This document shows positions 3,327 through 57,073 of a stretch of DNA of 64,000 nt, one piece after another; the first letter of the stretch is position 1; the number at the start of each line of letters is the position of its first letter. The notes under the pieces are model-generated. The model made no database searches, was not told the origin of the DNA, and saw only the letters and a list, made by a program, of their open reading frames with translations. The stretch spans positions 2,356,001 to 2,420,000 of the forward strand of contig NZ_AP025592.1 in assembly GCF_023169965.1 (NCBI RefSeq). The letters run 5' to 3'. Position numbers and translations under genes: made by a program. Origin of the DNA: Anaeromyxobacter paludicola (lineage in GTDB: Bacteria; Myxococcota; Myxococcia; Myxococcales; Anaeromyxobacteraceae).

Positions 3327-5810
3327 CTAAACCTTGAACCTCCCGACCCGTTCCGCCAGGGCCCGGGAGCGCCCGTCGAGCCGCTCGGCGACCCCGGAGA
3401 GCTCACCGACCGCCTGCTCGTGCAGCTCGGCGGTCCGGGTGAGGTGCCGCAGCGAGTCGCGCACCCGGCGGGTGGCCTGGTCGTGGTTCTCCACCGCCAG
3501 GGTGATGTCGCCGATCATGCCGTTGATCCGCTCCAGGCTCTCGAGCTGCTGGCGGCCGAGGCCGGTCTGCTCCTCGAGGGCCCGGCTGATCCGGTCGGCC
3601 ATGTCGCCCACGCCGCGGCTGACGGTGCCGACCGCGCTCACGCTGCGGCCCACCAGCTGCACGGCCTCGGAGAGGGTCTTCGAGCCGTCGGCGACCGAGC
3701 CGACCAGCGCCGAGACGTCGCGGCTCGACTGCACGTGGCTCTTCACCGCCTGCCCGATGGTCTCGGCCACCTCCCGGCCGCGGGCGGTGGCGACCCGGAT
3801 CTCCTCGAGGGCGTCGAGGGACTTGCGCGCGAGCCCGACGCCGTCGCCAGCGAGCCGGTCGCCGCGCTCGATCAGGGCGGCGGTGCCCTGCACGTCGTCG
3901 CGCACGGCGCCGATGATGGCGCCGATCGACTTGGTGGAGCTGGCGATCTGCGAGGCGAGATCGCGGATCTGGTCGGCGACCACGGCGAAGGCCTTGCCGT
4001 GCTCGCCCGCCTGCGCGGCGATGATCGAGGCGTTGAGCGAGAGGAGGTTGGTCCGGCCGGCCACCTCGGCGATGAAGTCGACGATCTGGTCGATGTCGTC
4101 GGAGCGGCGGCCCAGCGCGGTCACCTTGCGCTGGGCGTCGCCCACCGCCTCGCGCAGCCGCTCGATCCCCTGCACCGCCTCCTCCACCACGCCGCCGGAG
4201 CGCTCGGCCATCTCGGCCACCTGCACCGCGGTGACCTGGCTCTCCTCGGCGGAGACCTCGAGCCCGGACAGCGAGGCGTTCACGCCGGCGAGGCTGGTCG
4301 CGGCCTGCCCGGCGAGGGCGTCGAGGGTGGAGATGGCCTGCTGGGCCCGGCGGCCGGCGTCGGAGAGGCCGTCCACGTCGTGCATGGCGGTCTCCATGGC
4401 GCGCTCCATCTCCGCGCCCTGGCGCCGCACCTCCTCGAGCGCCGCCGCCATCTCGCCCACCGCGGCGCTGGTCGAGGCGACGTAGTCCGAGAGCCCCTCC
4501 ACGCCCCGGCCCACCTGCGTGACCGAGCCGTGCATGGCCTCCACGGCGGCCTGCACGGCGACCACCCGCTCGTGCTCCTGGAGGGCGCCGCTCTTCACGC
4601 GCTCGCCGATCTCGCCGATCTCGTGCGTGCCCTCGCCCACGCTGCGGCTCGCGGCGGCGACGTCGCCGACGAGGCTGGTGAGGCCGCCGATGGTGCGGCG
4701 GAAGGTGGCGGCGAGCTGCCCCATCTCGTCGCGCGACAGGCTGGGCGGCGCCACCGTGAGGTCGCCGGCGGCGAGCTGGACCGCGGCGGTCTCGAGGGCG
4801 TTGATGGGCACGGTGAGGGTGCGGGAGGCGATCCAGACGAGCAGCGCCACCGCGGCGTAGACCACCACCCCGAGCAGCAGCGCCGAGCTCCAGAAGCCCT
4901 CGCGCCGCTCGGTGAGCTCCGCCTCGGGGAGGAGCGTCACGAGCCGCGCCCCGCCGGCGATGGGCCGGTGCACCCGCCAGCCCGCGGCGATCTTCTCCAC
5001 GCCGGCCCCCTCGGGCAGCCCGGAGAGCAGCGGCGCGTCGGCGTTGCCGTAGCGGGCGAGCACCTCGCCGCCCGCGCCGAGCACCGCCGTGGGCGCGCCC
5101 ACGGTGAGCCAGACCGCCTCGGCCGCGCCCTGCGGGCCGCGCAGCTCGGCCCAGCCGGCGGCCTTCTCCTGCGCCCGGCGCGCCGCCGCCACGTAGCTCT
5201 CGTCGGCGTCCACCCGGAAGCGCACGTAGCTCGTGGCGGTGACGAGCAGGGTCACGATGCTGAGCAGGCCGTAGCAGACGAACAGGATCTTGCCGCGGAG
5301 GGTCCCCTTCTCGCGCAGCTCGACCGCGCCCAGGACCTCGAGGGCCGGCGCCACCTCGATCGCGCAGACCGAGTAGGCGAGCATGGCGGCCATGATGCCG
5401 GCGGAGGAGGTGACGGCGACCGCGCTGAGCGCGAGGTCGAGCGCGAAGCCCTGCCCGCTCGCGGCGAGGAGCAGCGCGGCCGCGCTCACGCCCGTCAGCA
5501 CCACGATCACCGCCGCCGCGCGGCCGGGGAGCCGGTGGCCGCAGAGCGCCCCGCCCTGCGCGTCGCGGGCGGCGAGCTCACCGCCGCCGAGCCGGGCGGC
5601 CACCGCCGTCCGCAGCGGCGCGAGGTAGCTCCAGACCGTGAAGAAGGTGAGCCCCTCGGCGACCGCCAGGGCGAGCGGGACGGCCACGCGCAGCAGGTCG
5701 AGCTGGCCCGGCGTCAGCGGGAAGAAGCTCGCGAGGACGTACCAGGCGACGAGCCCGGGGATGGCGAGCAGGACGGTGAGCTGGAGCAGGAGGCGGCGCG
5801 CGAAGGCCAT
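3327..5810 (-). CDS. Methyl-accepting chemotaxis protein with multi-helix N-terminus
   Basis: An 827-residue chemoreceptor. The N-terminus has several hydrophobic helices (about six before residue 315). Between the last two is a roughly 110-residue extracytoplasmic stretch that may be a small sensor domain. A HAMP linker follows (TLTVPINALETAAVQLAAGDLT), then a long cytoplasmic coiled coil with the signalling hairpin tip RTNLLSLNASIIAAQAGEHG and AFAVVADQIRDLA. It would report to CheA/CheW; no che genes are present in the window. The start chosen is ATG at 5810, which places the first helix right after MAFARR. An upstream ATG at 5897 is possible but would add a polar, Pro/Arg-rich leader and would read through a perfect palindrome. 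The hydrolase gene follows 45 bp after the stop. Confidence 0.9.
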   Translation of the reverse strand: MAFARRLLLQLTVLLAIPGLVAWYVLASFFPLTPGQLDLLRVAVPLALAVAEGLTFFTVWSYLAPLRTAVAARLGGGELAARDAQGGALCGHRLPGRAAAVIVVLTGVSAAALLLAASGQGFALDLALSAVAVTSSAGIMAAMLAYSVCAIEVAPALEVLGAVELREKGTLRGKILFVCYGLLSIVTLLVTATSYVRFRVDADESYVAAARRAQEKAAGWAELRGPQGAAEAVWLTVGAPTAVLGAGGEVLARYGNADAPLLSGLPEGAGVEKIAAGWRVHRPIAGGARLVTLLPEAELTERREGFWSSALLLGVVVYAAVALLVWIASRTLTVPINALETAAVQLAAGDLTVAPPSLSRDEMGQLAATFRRTIGGLTSLVGDVAAASRSVGEGTHEIGEIGERVKSGALQEHERVVAVQAAVEAMHGSVTQVGRGVEGLSDYVASTSAAVGEMAAALEEVRRQGAEMERAMETAMHDVDGLSDAGRRAQQAISTLDALAGQAATSLAGVNASLSGLEVSAEESQVTAVQVAEMAERSGGVVEEAVQGIERLREAVGDAQRKVTALGRRSDDIDQIVDFIAEVAGRTNLLSLNASIIAAQAGEHGKAFAVVADQIRDLASQIASSTKSIGAIIGAVRDDVQGTAALIERGDRLAGDGVGLARKSLDALEEIRVATARGREVAETIGQAVKSHVQSSRDVSALVGSVADGSKTLSEAVQLVGRSVSAVGTVSRGVGDMADRISRALEEQTGLGRQQLESLERINGMIGDITLAVENHDQATRRVRDSLRHLTRTAELHEQAVGELSGVAERLDGRSRALAERVGRFKV

Positions 5811-10393: not shown

Positions 10394-11080
10394 ATGCCCT
10401 CGCGCTCGCACCGCACCCGCCGTTCCCGCCAGGCCGAGCTCGCCTTTCGCTCCCACGGCGGCGCGCGGCGCGGCGCCGGGCGCAAGCCGAAGAACGGGGT
10501 GAAGGCGGGTGCCTCCCACGCCGTGCGCGCCGAGCTCTCCCCGCGCCACCCCGTCCACCTGACGCTCCGGCCGAGAGCCGGCGTCTGGAACCTGCGCAGC
10601 CGCCGGGCCTTCCGCGTCATCGGTCGCGCGCTGCTCGGGCTCGCCTCGGCACGGCGCGACTTCCGGGTGGTCCACTTCTCGGTCCAGGGAAATCACCTGC
10701 ACCTCCTCGCGGAGGTCCAGGGCAAGTCGGCGCTCACCGAGGGCGCGCGCTCGCTCGCGGTCCGGCTCGCCATGGGCCTGAACCGGCTCATGGGCACCCG
10801 CGGCCAGGTCTTCGACGACCGCTACCACGCCCACGTGCTCCGGACGCCGGCGGAGGTGAAGCGCGCCCTCGCCTACGTCCTCGGCAACTTCGCCTCGCAC
10901 GCGCGGCGCCGGGGCGAGCCGCTGCCGCCCGGGTTCGTGGACCCGTTCTCGTCGGCGGCGTTCCGGTGCTGTGGCGAGGAGGACGCGGCGGGAGCGGCCT
11001 GGGGCCCACCGCGCTGGTTCGGCGGCCTCGAGCGGCTGGTGGCGCCGCCGCGGACGTGGTTGCTGCGAACTCAGGCGTGA
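10394..11080 (+). CDS. RAYT-like HUH/Y1 transposase (IS200-like, REP-associated tyrosine transposase family)
   Basis: A 228-residue protein of a transposase-like family common in myxobacteria. The basic N-terminus has GARRGAGRKPK, a DNA-binding-like patch. The Y1_Tnp core has the metal-binding HUH motif as HLHLL (in VQGNHLHLLAEV). A helix follows with FDDRYHAHVLRTP, whose Tyr is the likely nucleophile, then AYVLGNFASHAR. The C-terminal tail, DPFSS through PRTWLLR, is typical of the family. Such enzymes cut and join single-stranded DNA, and in other bacteria they are tied to palindromic REP repeats. It is single copy and bears no obvious IS ends. The start is ATG at 10394; an upstream TTG at 10376 is less likely. 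Whether it is active cannot be told. Confidence 0.85.
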   Translation: MPSRSHRTRRSRQAELAFRSHGGARRGAGRKPKNGVKAGASHAVRAELSPRHPVHLTLRPRAGVWNLRSRRAFRVIGRALLGLASARRDFRVVHFSVQGNHLHLLAEVQGKSALTEGARSLAVRLAMGLNRLMGTRGQVFDDRYHAHVLRTPAEVKRALAYVLGNFASHARRRGEPLPPGFVDPFSSAAFRCCGEEDAAGAAWGPPRWFGGLERLVAPPRTWLLRTQA

Positions 11081-11164
11081 GGCACTCCGCGGCCCGGCCG
11101 CCATGAGAGCGCCGCCGAGCGTTCTCGAGAAACGCCGCCGACGTTCGGCCTCCCCCCGCCCGCC

Positions 11165-11548: not shown

Positions 11549-11654
11549 CGCGCCCCCCTCCCTCGCGGCGGCATGCGTCGCCGCCCGCCCCTGCTCATGT
11601 GCGGCGCGCGGCCGCAGCGCCAGCGGGAGAGTCGGGAGGCCGCGGGGAGCTCCT

Positions 11655-11758
11655 GGCCGCCCCTCCCCCGCCCTCCCCGCCCGAGCGGGGAGGGAGTGCA
11701 GCGGGTGACTCGGGGTTCCCCTCTCCCTCGGAGCGGAGGAGGCGGTGAGACGCGGGGC
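11655..11758. repeat. REP-like palindromic element, copy A (intergenic)
   Basis: The left part matches the other elements of this window: GCCCCTCCCC, then a stem with CCCTCCCCGC at 11671-11680, loop CCGA, and GCGGGGAGGG at 11685-11694. About 43 bp are nearly identical to copy B at 30974. The right half (11719-11758) is a degenerate second stem ending in GGGGCC. The element lies between a lipoprotein gene and a convergent stop, and could also act as a transcription terminator. Confidence 0.7.
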
Positions 11759-39177: not shown

Positions 39178-42099
39178 CTACACGTATCCGATTTTCTTGC
39201 GAGGTCCGGGCCGGCCGGCGGCCGCGGCCACCGGGGTGGGCTCCGGCTCGGCGGGCGGCTCCGGCGGAGGCGGCGCCGCGGGGGCGGGCCGGGTCGCGGC
39301 GGGGGCCGGGGGGGCGCTCGGCGCGGCGGGGCCGCCGACGAGCGGAGCCGGGGGGCGGCCGGGGCCGCCGCCGAGGCGGGCGACCACCCCCGCCACCTCG
39401 CGATAGCGCGGGTCGATCCGGACGATCTTCTGCAGGTAGAAGAGGGCCGCCTGCGGGTCGCCGGCCCCCTCGTAGGCGAGGCCGAGCTCGTAGTGGAGCG
39501 CCTTGGCCTGCTCCACCCCGACGCCGTCGGAGCCGAGCGCGCGCCGGAAGGCGTCCGCCGCCTGCAGGGGCGCGCCCTGCGCCATGCGGCAGAGGCCGAT
39601 CATGTTGAGGCAGTCGAGCTCGGGGTGGCCCCCGGCGGCGAGGGCGACCTCGAACTCCTGGACGGCGTCGTCGAGGAGCCCCATCTCCTTGTAGGCGATG
39701 CCGAGGTCGTAGTGGGTCGCGCCGTCCTCGGGGCGGACCGTCTGCTCGACGCCCTTCTTGAACTGGGAGAAGACGTCGTCCACCGAGTACTGGAAGTCGC
39801 CCGGGGACGGCGGTGCCGGAGGGTCCTCGGCGAGCTCGGAGGCGAGCTCCTTGCCGAGGTCGAAGGTGTCGTCGCCCGAGACCGCCAGCGGGGCGACGGC
39901 GTGCGGGGCGAGCTCGGAGGGCGGGGCGGCGGCGGGCGGCGCCTCCGGGGCGGCCGGCGCTTCCGGCTGCTCGGCGCCGGCCGCGGCGAGGGCGGCGAGC
40001 CGCGCGGCGACCTCCGGGTCGCCGGGGTGCGCGCTCGCGAGCTGCTCGAGGAGCTCGCGGGCCTCCTCGAGGAGCCCTTGCTGGATGAAGAAGTCGAGCT
40101 CGCCGAGGGCCTCGGGGTCGGGGGCGGCGAAGGCTCCCGGGGCCTGGCCATCCAGCGGGGCGCTCGTGGCGGCCCCTCCCCTGCCCTCCCCGCCCGGCGG
40201 GGAGGGAGCGGCTTCGAGGCGGCCGGGCGCGGAGGAGATGGGCGCAGCGGGGCCGGCCGCGGAGGAGATGGGCGCAGCGAGGCCGGGCGCGGCAGGGCCG
40301 CCCGCCCGGGGGCCGGGCGCAGCGGCGGCGGCGCCGTCTCCCTCCCCCGCTCCGCGGGGGAGGGTCGGGGAGGGGGCCGGCCCGGCCGCGGGGGCCGCGA
40401 CGGCGAGCACGTCCACCGTGACCTCGGCCACGTCGGCGGCCGGCTCGCGGGACGGGGCGCTCGCGCCGGCGCGCGCCGGCGCGGCCCCGGCCGTCGCCGC
40501 GCCGTAAGGCGGCTCGTCGTCCGGGACGACCTCCTGCCCCTCCTCGGCGGCCATCGAGAGCGCGAGGGCGTCCTCGTCCACCGGCTCGATGTCCTCCTCG
40601 CCGACCACCAGCGCCTCGCCGTCGTCGAACGCGACGCGCTCCTCGCCCCCGCCCTCGAACGCGACGGTCTCGCCGCCGCCCTCGAACGCGACCACCTCCT
40701 CGCCGCCACCCTCGAAGGCGACGACCTCCTCGCCTCCCGCGGGCGTTGCGGGCGGGGTCGCCGGGCCGCAGGCGGCCTCGAGCTCCGGGAGCTCGGGGTG
40801 CCCGGGCGCGAGCTCGCGCAGGCGCGCCAGGGCGGCCTCGGCCTCGAGCGGGCGGCCCTTCGCGAGGTGACCGCGCACCGCGAGCGCCCCCTCGCGCGCC
40901 GCCGAGGCCGGGTCGCCGGCGCGGACGTGGATCTCCCGCGCCCGCTCGTGGGCCTCGGCGTGGCCCGGGTCGAGCGCGAGCACCTTGTTGACGTGCTCGA
41001 GCGCCCGGGCGGTGAGGCCGTACTTCAGGTAGACGTCGAGCTCGGTGAGCAGCCGCGGGATGGCGTCCACGCCCGGCGCCGCGGGGCCGGGCTGCGCCGC
41101 CGAGGCCGGAGCGGGGGCGGCGCTCGGCGGGGCGGCGGCCGGGGCCGGCGCCGGGGTCGCGCTCGCCGGCGGCCAGGCCGGGGCCCGGGCCGGCTCGGGC
41201 GCGCGGCGCACGCCGGCCCCCTCCTGCGCCTCGGCGTCGTCGGGCGCGAGCTCGAGCACCTTGCGGAAGGTGGCGCGGGCGTCCTCGGCGCGGCCCCGCT
41301 CCGCGTAGACGTGGGCGAGCTCCTTGTAGACCGAGAGCGTCTTCGAGAGCTGCCCGAGATCGCGGAACGCCTGCGCCAGCAGCGTGAGCGTCTCCACGTC
41401 CTTCGGGTCGGCCTTGAAGCAGAGCTGCAGCTTCGCGAGGGCGCGCTTGGTGTCGCCGCGCGCGAGGTAGACGTTGGCGAGCTCGCGGGTGAGCTGGAGG
41501 TCCTGCGGCGCGAGCGAGGCGACCCGCTCGGCGACCTTGAGGTACTCGTCCACCCGCGCCGTCTTCTTGAGCGCGGCGGCGGCGCGCCGGAACTGCTCCA
41601 GGGCCGGCCCCGGCTGGCCGCCGCGCACGTAGAGCTCGCCGAGCTTCACGGCGGTGGCGACGTTGTCGGGATCGAGCTCCGCCATGCGGCGGAGCGCGTC
41701 CATCACCTTGGCCTCGTCCCCCGCCCGCTCCCAGGACTGCGCCAGCGCGTGCATCTGCCCCATCGCGTCGGAGAGGAGGCCGAGCTGCTGGTAGAGCGCG
41801 GCGAGCTTCTCCGGGACGCGCGGGTCGTCGGGGGTGAGCCGGGCGATCTGCTTGTAGACCGCGACCGCCTTGAGCGCGAAGCCCTGCTCGCCGTACGCCT
41901 GCGCGCAGAGGTGGAAAGTCTCGGCGGCGCCGGAGAGGTCGTTCTTCTTCTGCTGGGTCTCGCCGATCTTCAGCCGGACGCGGACGTCCTTCGGATCCTC
42001 GGAGAGGATCTTCTCGTAGAGCTTGATCGCCTTGTCGTACTGCCCCTTCTGGGCGTACTTGCTCGCCTCTGCGACGATCTTGTTCTTGTCGAGGGCCAA
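39178..42099 (-). CDS. Large TPR protein with repeated acidic motif and an in-frame REPIN-like insert
   Basis: A 973-residue protein. Residues 1-300 are tandem TPR units (KGQYDKAIKLYEKILSEDPKDVRVR and following), then a second TPR block near 340-440 and another near 815-910. Between them is a low-complexity region. It holds four tandem VAFEGGGEE-type repeats (nucleotides about 40624-40735) and, at residues about 575-643, the product of an inserted palindromic element. The C-terminus is Pro/Ala-rich. It looks like a scaffold; similar proteins are frequent in myxobacteria. The start is TTG at 42099, with the frame conserved (ALDKNKIVAEASKYAQKG). No closely placed ribosome-binding site is seen, and a candidate promoter is nearly on top of the start. 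Confidence 0.85.
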   Translation of the reverse strand: MALDKNKIVAEASKYAQKGQYDKAIKLYEKILSEDPKDVRVRLKIGETQQKKNDLSGAAETFHLCAQAYGEQGFALKAVAVYKQIARLTPDDPRVPEKLAALYQQLGLLSDAMGQMHALAQSWERAGDEAKVMDALRRMAELDPDNVATAVKLGELYVRGGQPGPALEQFRRAAAALKKTARVDEYLKVAERVASLAPQDLQLTRELANVYLARGDTKRALAKLQLCFKADPKDVETLTLLAQAFRDLGQLSKTLSVYKELAHVYAERGRAEDARATFRKVLELAPDDAEAQEGAGVRRAPEPARAPAWPPASATPAPAPAAAPPSAAPAPASAAQPGPAAPGVDAIPRLLTELDVYLKYGLTARALEHVNKVLALDPGHAEAHERAREIHVRAGDPASAAREGALAVRGHLAKGRPLEAEAALARLRELAPGHPELPELEAACGPATPPATPAGGEEVVAFEGGGEEVVAFEGGGETVAFEGGGEERVAFDDGEALVVGEEDIEPVDEDALALSMAAEEGQEVVPDDEPPYGAATAGAAPARAGASAPSREPAADVAEVTVDVLAVAAPAAGPAPSPTLPRGAGEGDGAAAAAPGPRAGGPAAPGLAAPISSAAGPAAPISSAPGRLEAAPSPPGGEGRGGAATSAPLDGQAPGAFAAPDPEALGELDFFIQQGLLEEARELLEQLASAHPGDPEVAARLAALAAAGAEQPEAPAAPEAPPAAAPPSELAPHAVAPLAVSGDDTFDLGKELASELAEDPPAPPSPGDFQYSVDDVFSQFKKGVEQTVRPEDGATHYDLGIAYKEMGLLDDAVQEFEVALAAGGHPELDCLNMIGLCRMAQGAPLQAADAFRRALGSDGVGVEQAKALHYELGLAYEGAGDPQAALFYLQKIVRIDPRYREVAGVVARLGGGPGRPPAPLVGGPAAPSAPPAPAATRPAPAAPPPPEPPAEPEPTPVAAAAGRPGPRKKIGYV
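40171..40378. repeat. REPIN-like element, copy C, in frame inside the TPR gene
   Basis: Two REP-type stems lie in opposite orientation at the ends of 208 bp. Left: GGCCCCTCCCC then CCCTCCCCGCC (40184-40194) and GGCGGGGAGGG (40196-40206). Right: CCCTCCCCCGC (40340-40350) and GCGGGGGAGGG (40354-40364), followed by TCGGGGAGGGGGCC. Between them is a tandem 30-bp repeat (40221-40280). The TPR reading frame passes through without a stop. Confidence 0.78.
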
Positions 42100-54110: not shown

Positions 54111-55205
54111 TCAGCGGAAGAGGCCGAGCGCCGGGACGAGCCGCGACAGGGGCTGGGAGAGGTAGAGCCACTCGAACGCGGCGAGCACCAAGAACGGGCC
54201 GAAGGGGACCGCGTTCTTGGGAGGCACCCAGTCGGCGTCGGGGTCGACCGCGTCGGGCTCGGCGTCGGGCTCGGCCCCGTCCCCGACCCTCCCCCGCTCC
54301 GCGGGAGGGGGGAAGAGCGGCTCATCCCCGCCGGGCAGCGGAGCCTCGCTGGTCAGTGGAGCTTCCCTCTCACAGCCGGGCGGGGACGCCGCGACGGCGT
54401 CGCCGGCAGGCGGGCCGTGAAGCTCCCCCTCCCCGCCGGGCGGGGAGGGCTGGGGAGGGGCCGCCAGCGCGCCCTCGCCGCCCGCCGCCTCGCGCGGCTT
54501 CGGCCCCGGCTGCCCCTTGCCGAGCGCGATGAGCGCGAGCCCGACCACCGAGCCCTGCAGCGACGCGAGCAGCACGACGGGCAGGAGCGCGGCGAGCCCG
54601 TGCCACGCGCCGAGCCCCGCGAGCAGCCAGACGTCGCCGAAGCCCATCGCCTCCTTGTGGAACACCTTCTCCCCGATCACCGACACCGCCCCGAAGGCGA
54701 CGAAGCCGGCGGCCGCGCCCATCGCCGCCGAGCGGAACGACGGCGCCGCCGAGAGCCCCAGGCCCGCCGCGGCGAGCCCGAGGAGGATGAGCGGCCAGGT
54801 GAGCGCGTTCGGCAGGAGCCAGGTGTCGAGGTCGATGAAGGCGAGCGAGAGGAGCACCGCGGCGTAGGCGAACTCGGCGGCGGCCTCGGCCGAGAGCCCG
54901 TGGCGGTAGAAGGCGAGCCAGGCGAGGCCGGCCCCGAGCGCCTCCACGACCGGGTAGCGGATCGAGATCGGCGCGCGGCAGCGGCGGCAGCGGGCCCGCA
55001 GGAGGAGCCACGACAGCACCGGCACGTTGTCGTACCAGGCGATGCCGGCGCCGCAGCGCGGGCAGCGGGAGCGGGGGCGGACGATCGACTCGCCGGCCGG
55101 CACGCGGGCGATCACCACGTTGAGGAAGCTGCCCACCACGGCGCCGAGGGCGACGACCCACAGCGCGGCGAGGAGCTCGGCGATCTGTCCTTCTTCGATG
55201 GGCAC
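54111..55205 (-). CDS. pilD: Prepilin peptidase PilD with an inserted repeat-encoded segment
   Basis: A 364-residue aspartyl prepilin peptidase and N-methylase. The N-terminal GSFLNVVIARVP is followed by the Cys quartet (Cys48, 51, 73, 76) of the zinc-binding methylase part. Catalytic Asp125 is in FIDLDTWLLP and Asp191 in GFGDVWLL. About eight helices. A normal enzyme would pass from GKGQPGPKP directly to the VPFGPFLVLA motif. Here about 64 residues (about 248-311) encoded by a REPIN-like element lie between, probably in a cytoplasmic loop. Both catalytic sites are intact, so activity may be kept. Confidence 0.94.
   Translation of the reverse strand: MPIEEGQIAELLAALWVVALGAVVGSFLNVVIARVPAGESIVRPRSRCPRCGAGIAWYDNVPVLSWLLLRARCRRCRAPISIRYPVVEALGAGLAWLAFYRHGLSAEAAAEFAYAAVLLSLAFIDLDTWLLPNALTWPLILLGLAAAGLGLSAAPSFRSAAMGAAAGFVAFGAVSVIGEKVFHKEAMGFGDVWLLAGLGAWHGLAALLPVVLLASLQGSVVGLALIALGKGQPGPKPREAAGGEGALAAPPQPSPPGGEGELHGPPAGDAVAASPPGCEREAPLTSEAPLPGGDEPLFPPPAERGRVGDGAEPDAEPDAVDPDADWVPPKNAVPFGPFLVLAAFEWLYLSQPLSRLVPALGLFR
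54273..54462. repeat. REPIN-like element, copy D, in frame inside pilD
   Basis: Two inverted REP-type stems bound 190 bp. Left: GGCCCCGTCCCCGA then CCCTCCCCCGC (54287-54297), loop TCC, an imperfect partner to 54312. Right: CCCTCCCCGCC (54427-54437) and GGCGGGGAGGG (54439-54449), followed by CTGGGGAGGGGCC. The inner 115 bp differ from copy C. No stop arises in the pilD frame. Confidence 0.78.
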
Positions 55206-56428: not shown

Positions 56429-57073
56429 ATGTTCAAGAAGGCCAAGGGCTTCACGCTGATCGAGCTCATGATCGTCGTGGCCATCATCGGCATCCTCGCC
56501 GCCATCGCCATCCCCAACTTCCTGCGCTACCAGCTCCGCTCCAAGTTCGGCGAGCTCAAGTCCAACGTGCAGGCCATCTACCAGTCGGAGGAGTCGCTGC
56601 GTCAGTCCGAGCGGCAGGCCTGCCCGAGCGCCATGAGCGGCTACTACGTGGCCCTCACCCAGGTGCCGAGCGGCACGCCCGGCCCGACCAAGATGGTCTG
56701 GGCGGCGACCGACATCGCGGCCGCCAACTCGATCGACTGGGTGGTCCAGGGCGCGACCTACGGCGCCTACCAGGTCGCTACCGACGCCCAGCCCGCCGTC
56801 GCCGGCAGCCTGCAGAACAAGTGCAGCGGCTCGCTCGGCAACCTCGGCGGCGCGATGTCGATCGGCGCCTGGTCGGACATCGACGGCGACAGCGTGACCT
56901 CGGCCGTGGCCGCCTTCCAGCCGCTGCTCAACGCGAGCGGCAGCGTGGCGACCGCCGCCCCCAAGGCCCCGTACCCCTCGGGCTCCAACACCGACAACTG
57001 CAGCGGTCAGCTGCAGCCCGGCACGGTCGGCAACGGCCAGGTCACCAACTGCTCCGCTGACAACGTCTTCTAG
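56429..57073 (+). CDS. pilA: Type IV major pilin PilA
   Basis: A 214-residue type IVa pilin. The leader is seven residues ending in Gly7; Phe8 is the methylated mature start, and Glu12 (position +5) is present (GFTLIELMIVVAIIGILAAI). The N-terminal helix runs to about residue 60. The globular part is Ser/Thr/Gly-rich and has four Cys (65, 132, 191, 208), allowing two disulfides. GGAGG lies 6 bp upstream of the ATG. It has its own sigma-54 promoter and a terminator 26 bp past the stop. Confidence 0.97.
   Translation: MFKKAKGFTLIELMIVVAIIGILAAIAIPNFLRYQLRSKFGELKSNVQAIYQSEESLRQSERQACPSAMSGYYVALTQVPSGTPGPTKMVWAATDIAAANSIDWVVQGATYGAYQVATDAQPAVAGSLQNKCSGSLGNLGGAMSIGAWSDIDGDSVTSAVAAFQPLLNASGSVATAAPKAPYPSGSNTDNCSGQLQPGTVGNGQVTNCSADNVF

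Follow-up and report, generated by a model that had tools for sequence, protein, structure and literature searches.

An in-frame insertion of about 194 bp (64-65 codons) lengthens the prepilin peptidase gene pilD in the 64,000-nucleotide stretch of Anaeromyxobacter paludicola DNA analysed here (the window), and it very probably arose when a genus-restricted, multicopy REPIN-like element transposed into a loop of PilD, gene-breaking copies of the element having been lost while tolerant loops retain the survivors. A preliminary description of this DNA had placed a REPIN-like element in frame at 54273-54462, between GKGQPGPKP and VPFGPFL, and had credited it with about 64 added residues. Its coordinates lie within ~5 bases of the canonical ends at ~54274 and ~54467, its placement and size hold (Table 1), and its reading of the insert is borne out by a multicopy family, by inverted hairpins and by a PilD without the element in the sister species. 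In the sequence of events that we propose, two GC-rich inverted hairpins around a variable spacer would have transposed into the loop ahead of the last transmembrane helix of PilD. Insertions would hit genes and intergenic DNA alike, and selection would remove most of those in genes, leaving as survivors the ones with a frame-keeping length and a loop position. We infer both the loss of gene-breaking copies and the survival in loops from the intergenic excess of the copies and from their loop positions.

Table 1. Features of the window bearing on the pilD insertion (positions are those of the window).
Feature	Position	Strand	Evidence and remarks
pilD, prepilin peptidase, 364 aa	54111..55205	-	Pfam A24_N_bact 2e-34 and Peptidase_A24 6e-19
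PilD linker, residues ~235-328, predicted disordered; helix 204-227 before, helix 335-356 after	54222..54503	-	AlphaFold2
REPIN-like element, in frame in pilD, read antisense to element orientation	54274..54467	+	profile matches A and B, own-genome family, absent from sister PilD; ends approximate, ~5 bases
Hairpin A half (CCCTCCCCCGCTCCGCGGGAGGGGG)	54268..54325	+	nhmmer 35.5 bits
Variable spacer with decayed hairpin-like copy at 54364-54386 (87% to 54424-54446)	54326..54415	+	direct repeat D3
Hairpin B half (CCCTCCCCGCCGGGCGGGGAGGGCTGGGGAGGGG)	54416..54469	+	exact pattern match, genome 2410427-2410460
Second in-window in-frame family element, in TPR-protein gene (39178-42099)	40155..40378	-	profile matches; real
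Pilin gene with prepilin motif (MFKKAKGFTLIELMIVV), likely PilD substrate	56429..57073	+	ORF translation

Several lines of evidence tie the insert to a repeat family. The A core pattern matches three times in the window against 0.02 expected, which is not chance, and the whole pilD element, searched against its own 4.59 Mb genome, finds at least 67 matching places, from 40 scored candidates. The ends of the element are related to each other in inverted orientation (CCCCCTCCCTGGCCCTCCCC / GGGGAGGGCTGGGGAGGGG); in the predicted fold of the pilD element strand the two ends pair (folding z = -4.0). At E <= 0.1 no Rfam match was obtained, and a known structured RNA was rejected as the identity of the element on that ground. 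No clear target duplication was established at the element. The peptide stretch AAPPQPSPPGGEGELHGPPAGDAVAASPPGCER belongs to the translation of the pilD insert.

Copy statistics were taken from 2.46 Mb of the 4.59 Mb genome, sampled as nearly evenly spaced 20 kb stretches together with the window, with separate profiles built for the A and B halves. Merging the 81 A and 64 B profile matches gave 92 places. In 42 cases A and B form a pair on one strand, with spacers of about 0 to 200 bp between them, and 61 halves are unpaired; the genome as a whole would have about a hundred copies or more. The family shows two features of REPINs, namely two inverted REP palindromes combined in one hairpin unit (the 42 pairs, and ends that pair in the pilD copy) and dispersed high copy number mainly outside genes. 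Intergenic copies make up 63 of the 92 and fall in the non-coding ~10% of a sample that is 90% coding (p = 6e-41); among the 62 copies with both neighbours called, 25 occupy gaps between convergent genes, compared with 13% of intergenic bases. The family is dense from 2.5 to 4.5 Mb and nearly missing from about 0.5 to 1.5 Mb (2 matches in 520 kb sampled).

A strict B pattern with its tail has 76 matches in this genome, 43 in that of the sister species (G001, the sole other genome of the genus, 80% complete), and none in 22 other genomes of the family Anaeromyxobacteraceae; a reversed-pattern control gave 0 matches in every genome searched. Judged by this strict pattern, the element family is confined to one genus. 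The tip of the hairpin covaries, being G-C or A-T at one pair and C-G or T-A at the next, and the T-A type accounts for 27 of 43 tips in the sister genome and for none of the 74 own-genome tips counted. The compensatory nature of these changes suggests that the hairpins matter and that amplification was lineage-specific, and the distinct predominant tips would be a sign of separate amplification after the species split. The predominant tip reads GTCGCAC in the sister and GCTCGGGC or GCCGGGC in the genome itself.

The gene that received the insertion seems to have remained intact. An independent codon-usage caller gave the same gene limits for the 364-codon ORF, and the product has both A24 peptidase domains together with the Asp pair expected of a prepilin peptidase. 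Asp125 and Asp191, which we take to be the catalytic pair of the family, are retained, as the preliminary description had noted, and are invariant across the orthologue alignment. PilD would be made with a linker of ~94 residues, against ~30-50 otherwise. It most likely retains its function, given that the search turned up no other PilD in this genome and that a pilin gene whose prepilin motif is clear is located 1.2 kb away. The remaining match in the own-genome PilD search is weak and falls on an element peptide inside another gene.

Comparison with relatives places the insertion in a variable part of the protein. Measured between the GKG(Q/E)xG and W(V/I)PPxNAVPFGPFL motifs, the linkers of ~20 family orthologues range from about 10 to 70 residues and are unrelated in sequence; they are short in L054 and L046 and acidic or proline-rich in L036 and L038, and in the sister PilD a low-complexity linker some 45 residues long takes this place, with the element missing. 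A linker of the same length in every related PilD, which the preliminary description had named as evidence against an insertion, was thus not found. In an AlphaFold2 model built from an 8-orthologue alignment (mean pLDDT 70.9), residues 235-314 and 318-328 have pLDDT < 50, few residues excepted, while the core and the last helix mostly reach 80-94 and confident helices flank the linker. The insert would thus lengthen a disordered loop ahead of the last helix, and by the orthologue comparison the element is inserted into a hypervariable loop, in agreement with the earlier suggestion that the insertion spots are tolerant ones. No PDB relative of PilD was found by sequence.

Long linkers of unrelated low-complexity or tandem-repeat sequence in other family members (L036, L037) could be taken to mean that the PilD linker of this GC-rich gene lengthened through ordinary drift of low-complexity sequence and that its likeness to a repeat is superficial. 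We give this reading almost no credence, since both hairpin halves in pilD match the multicopy family specifically (A at 35.5 bits, B through an exact core) and stand in the same order and orientation as in dozens of intergenic copies. The linker of L037 (G017) is expanded by a (PTST)n-like tandem repeat. That of L040 (G019, another genus) contains at 1311-1343 a perfect palindrome with 14-bp arms whose exact sequence differs from the element. It may represent another insertion, independent of the first and of a different repeat; the exact pattern occurs in just one place in G019 and is not claimed here as a repeat.

Copies in uninterrupted ORFs number 21 of 92, a count that may be slightly raised by one sampled stretch chosen to contain a known weak match, and 12 of 92 have both flanks coding in the same frame, the reduction from 21 to 12 involving nos. 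0, 27, 46, 57, 62 and 80 in low-complexity or doubtful ORFs. The in-gene share is accordingly 13-23% of copies from strict to loose count. The hosts are functionally unrelated to one another and include an NtrY-like histidine kinase whose HisKA match is shortened by an insert located behind the H-box, a DUF58 protein whose domain match is divided in two by the element, a MEMO-like protein, an FtsX-like permease, a BatA-like protein, a methyltransferase, an outer-membrane efflux protein, an ABC ATPase-permease ORF and a TPR protein. The last of these lies in the window, and the preliminary description was right that two genes are hit, this one and pilD both carrying real in-frame copies. In-frame insertion into unrelated, intact genes thus extends over 21 in-gene copies, 12 of them flanked by coding sequence, and was checked against sister orthologues for seven.

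Among these seven comparable host genes, four are without the element in the sister and three have a shared copy in the same frame. The DUF58 gene has an empty site, where sister positions 3405-3980 and 3981-4304 abut at the element position in the base alignment and the matches to residues 1-192 and 227-334 meet at 3980/3981; the element is likewise absent from the sister orthologues of an oxidoreductase-like gene and of the methyltransferase. The NtrY-like, MEMO-like and BatA-like genes have a copy at the same site and in the same frame in both species, differing in length and with spacers and flanks that have diverged. On the simplest reading, the three shared insertions would be older than the species split and would have stayed in frame through later changes.

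Retention in frame despite diverged spacers and flanks is also what one would expect if in-gene copies were kept for a function, either as a flexible linker or as an mRNA or DNA hairpin at domain borders that delays ribosomes or stops antisense transcription. The strong folding of the element and a palindrome in the BatA-like gene that is more conserved than its flanks fit such a role. We nevertheless consider it improbable, because four of the seven comparable genes have an empty site or an unrelated linker in the sister and are apparently intact, the host genes share no function, and plain tolerance with inheritance yields the same pattern. In the NtrY-like kinase (L108:2302-3891, and L197) the REP insert lies just past the H-box helix and is in frame in the sister too, so that the phospho-acceptor hairpin would carry an inserted loop.

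The preliminary description had further proposed that the element is selected to have at least one open frame through it, and this the analysis does not support. Genomic copies are not closed by stops in every frame, the other outcome that the preliminary description had named as refuting it, and at least one open frame was found in 31 of 31 intergenic pairs; dinucleotide shuffles and random genome segments each give 30.9 of 31, so that composition accounts for the property and selection is not needed. Openness is a by-product of the ~79% GC of the element in a 74% GC genome, and it comes free because sequence this rich in GC is almost without stop codons in any frame. The idea of a single stop-free frame was rejected by the phase test, in which intergenic hairpins were 84-100% open in each of the six phases.

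A stronger version of this proposal holds that the element is selected to be readable and, like RPE-1 of Rickettsia, donates a fixed peptide from a dedicated open frame. Some of the counts lean in its direction: intergenic A..B copies have on average 4.58 of 6 frames stop-free, slightly above the 4.27 (sd 0.15) of dinucleotide shuffles, of which 5 in 200 reach the observed mean, and random segments average 3.95 across the genome and 2.73 in intergenic DNA. Among in-gene A halves in antisense reading, moreover, 7 of 8 share a single phase (p about 0.007, in one of four tests). We regard a dedicated frame as very improbable all the same: the intergenic copies too are 84-100% open in all six phases, copies inside genes are read in either orientation and in several phases, and practically every shuffled or random segment is expected to have an open frame. 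A conserved peptide encoded in one dedicated frame was not found, all phases being open. The phase preference of the A half is best treated as a lead. It could also result from a target sequence whose codon phase is fixed, or equally from target-site sequence acting together with the strong codon periodicity at 74% genomic GC. A broader interpretation, which we think unlikely, is that in this genus the REPIN-like population uses coding loops as a regular landing site and so repeatedly supplies proteins with disordered linkers, some of them retained in frame across the species split, possibly aided by this phase preference.

As to how the element moves, passages in PMC8266576 and PMC3116915 indicate that RAYT (TnpA-REP) HUH transposases are thought to move REPs via single strands, and by analogy with REPs elsewhere the present element may be mobilised by an HUH transposase on single-stranded DNA. 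A clear link to RAYT genes was not established. The six RAYT-like genes in the genome score 28-61 bits against a curated cut-off of 80, no family hairpin lies within 1.5 kb of the three that were inspected, and such genes occur throughout the family, relatives without the element included, with none found in the sister genome (80% complete). One of the six, a RAYT-like HUH gene, lies in the window at 10394-11081 (+; NF047646 28 bits, below the cut-off), with a family hairpin ~0.6 kb downstream (11643-11742).

The element resembles several known systems and coincides with none. With REPINs (Bertels and Rainey 2011, PMC3116915) it shares an inverted REP pair with a spacer, a long hairpin, high copy number, restriction to close relatives and a mostly intergenic location, and differs in that no RAYT gene could be tied to it. 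In P. fluorescens SBW25, 14 of 1,067 REP 16-mers overlap genes (PMC3116915), about 1% as against 21/92 (strictly 12/92) here, a contrast that is indicative given that the counting methods differ. With the GTAG/CGTC REPs of 'REP-decorated proteins' (PMC3733652) it shares in-frame REP dimers in intact unrelated genes and a preference for positions between convergent or unidirectional genes, and REP clusters encoding up to 82 residues are a further likeness; the hosts found here, however, are not DNA repair genes, and the GTAG or CGTC tag is absent from the consensus ends GCGCCCCCTCCC (A) and GGGGAGGGGCGGCCAG (B). Rickettsia palindromic elements (Ogata 2000/2002, per PMC10969869) are likewise ~150 bp palindromes in frame in many unrelated genes, but are reported to encode a conserved peptide, whereas the openness seen here derives from GC content and extends to several frames. 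Enterobacterial small mobile sequences with ORFs, as portrayed in part of PMC2759123, are also small MITE-like repeats between and inside genes, with a different sequence and in a different host lineage. We use the name REPIN-like because the element has no GTAG/CGTC tag, no dedicated frame and no established RAYT link.

In-frame REPs in proteins were already known (PMC3733652, PMC10969869), and the added interest of the present case is the high in-gene share, together with the explanation of open frames by GC content. Anaeromyxobacteraceae join the few cases of palindromic mobile elements rewriting proteins in frame as a GC-rich lineage, and since high GC leaves nearly every frame of the element stop-free, REPINs in GC-rich genomes can become linkers. 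Because a single sister genome offers orthologues with an empty site as well as orthologues that share the insertion, the tolerance and age of insertions can be tested directly. For annotation, peptides such as PSPPGGEGE, ALPRCAGEGE or PLSREAGEGQGGG should be recognized as translated repeats. Two further ORFs illustrate what such repeats may do to proteins. At L175:10743-12971 the element joins an ABC ATPase and an ABC-2 permease in a single ORF, a possible repeat-caused gene fusion. The proline-rich ORF at L180:10684-12237 has two or more B halves in frame and regularly spaced (PPSPPRGEGRGGAARS), and looks as if the repeat had turned into a protein repeat unit.
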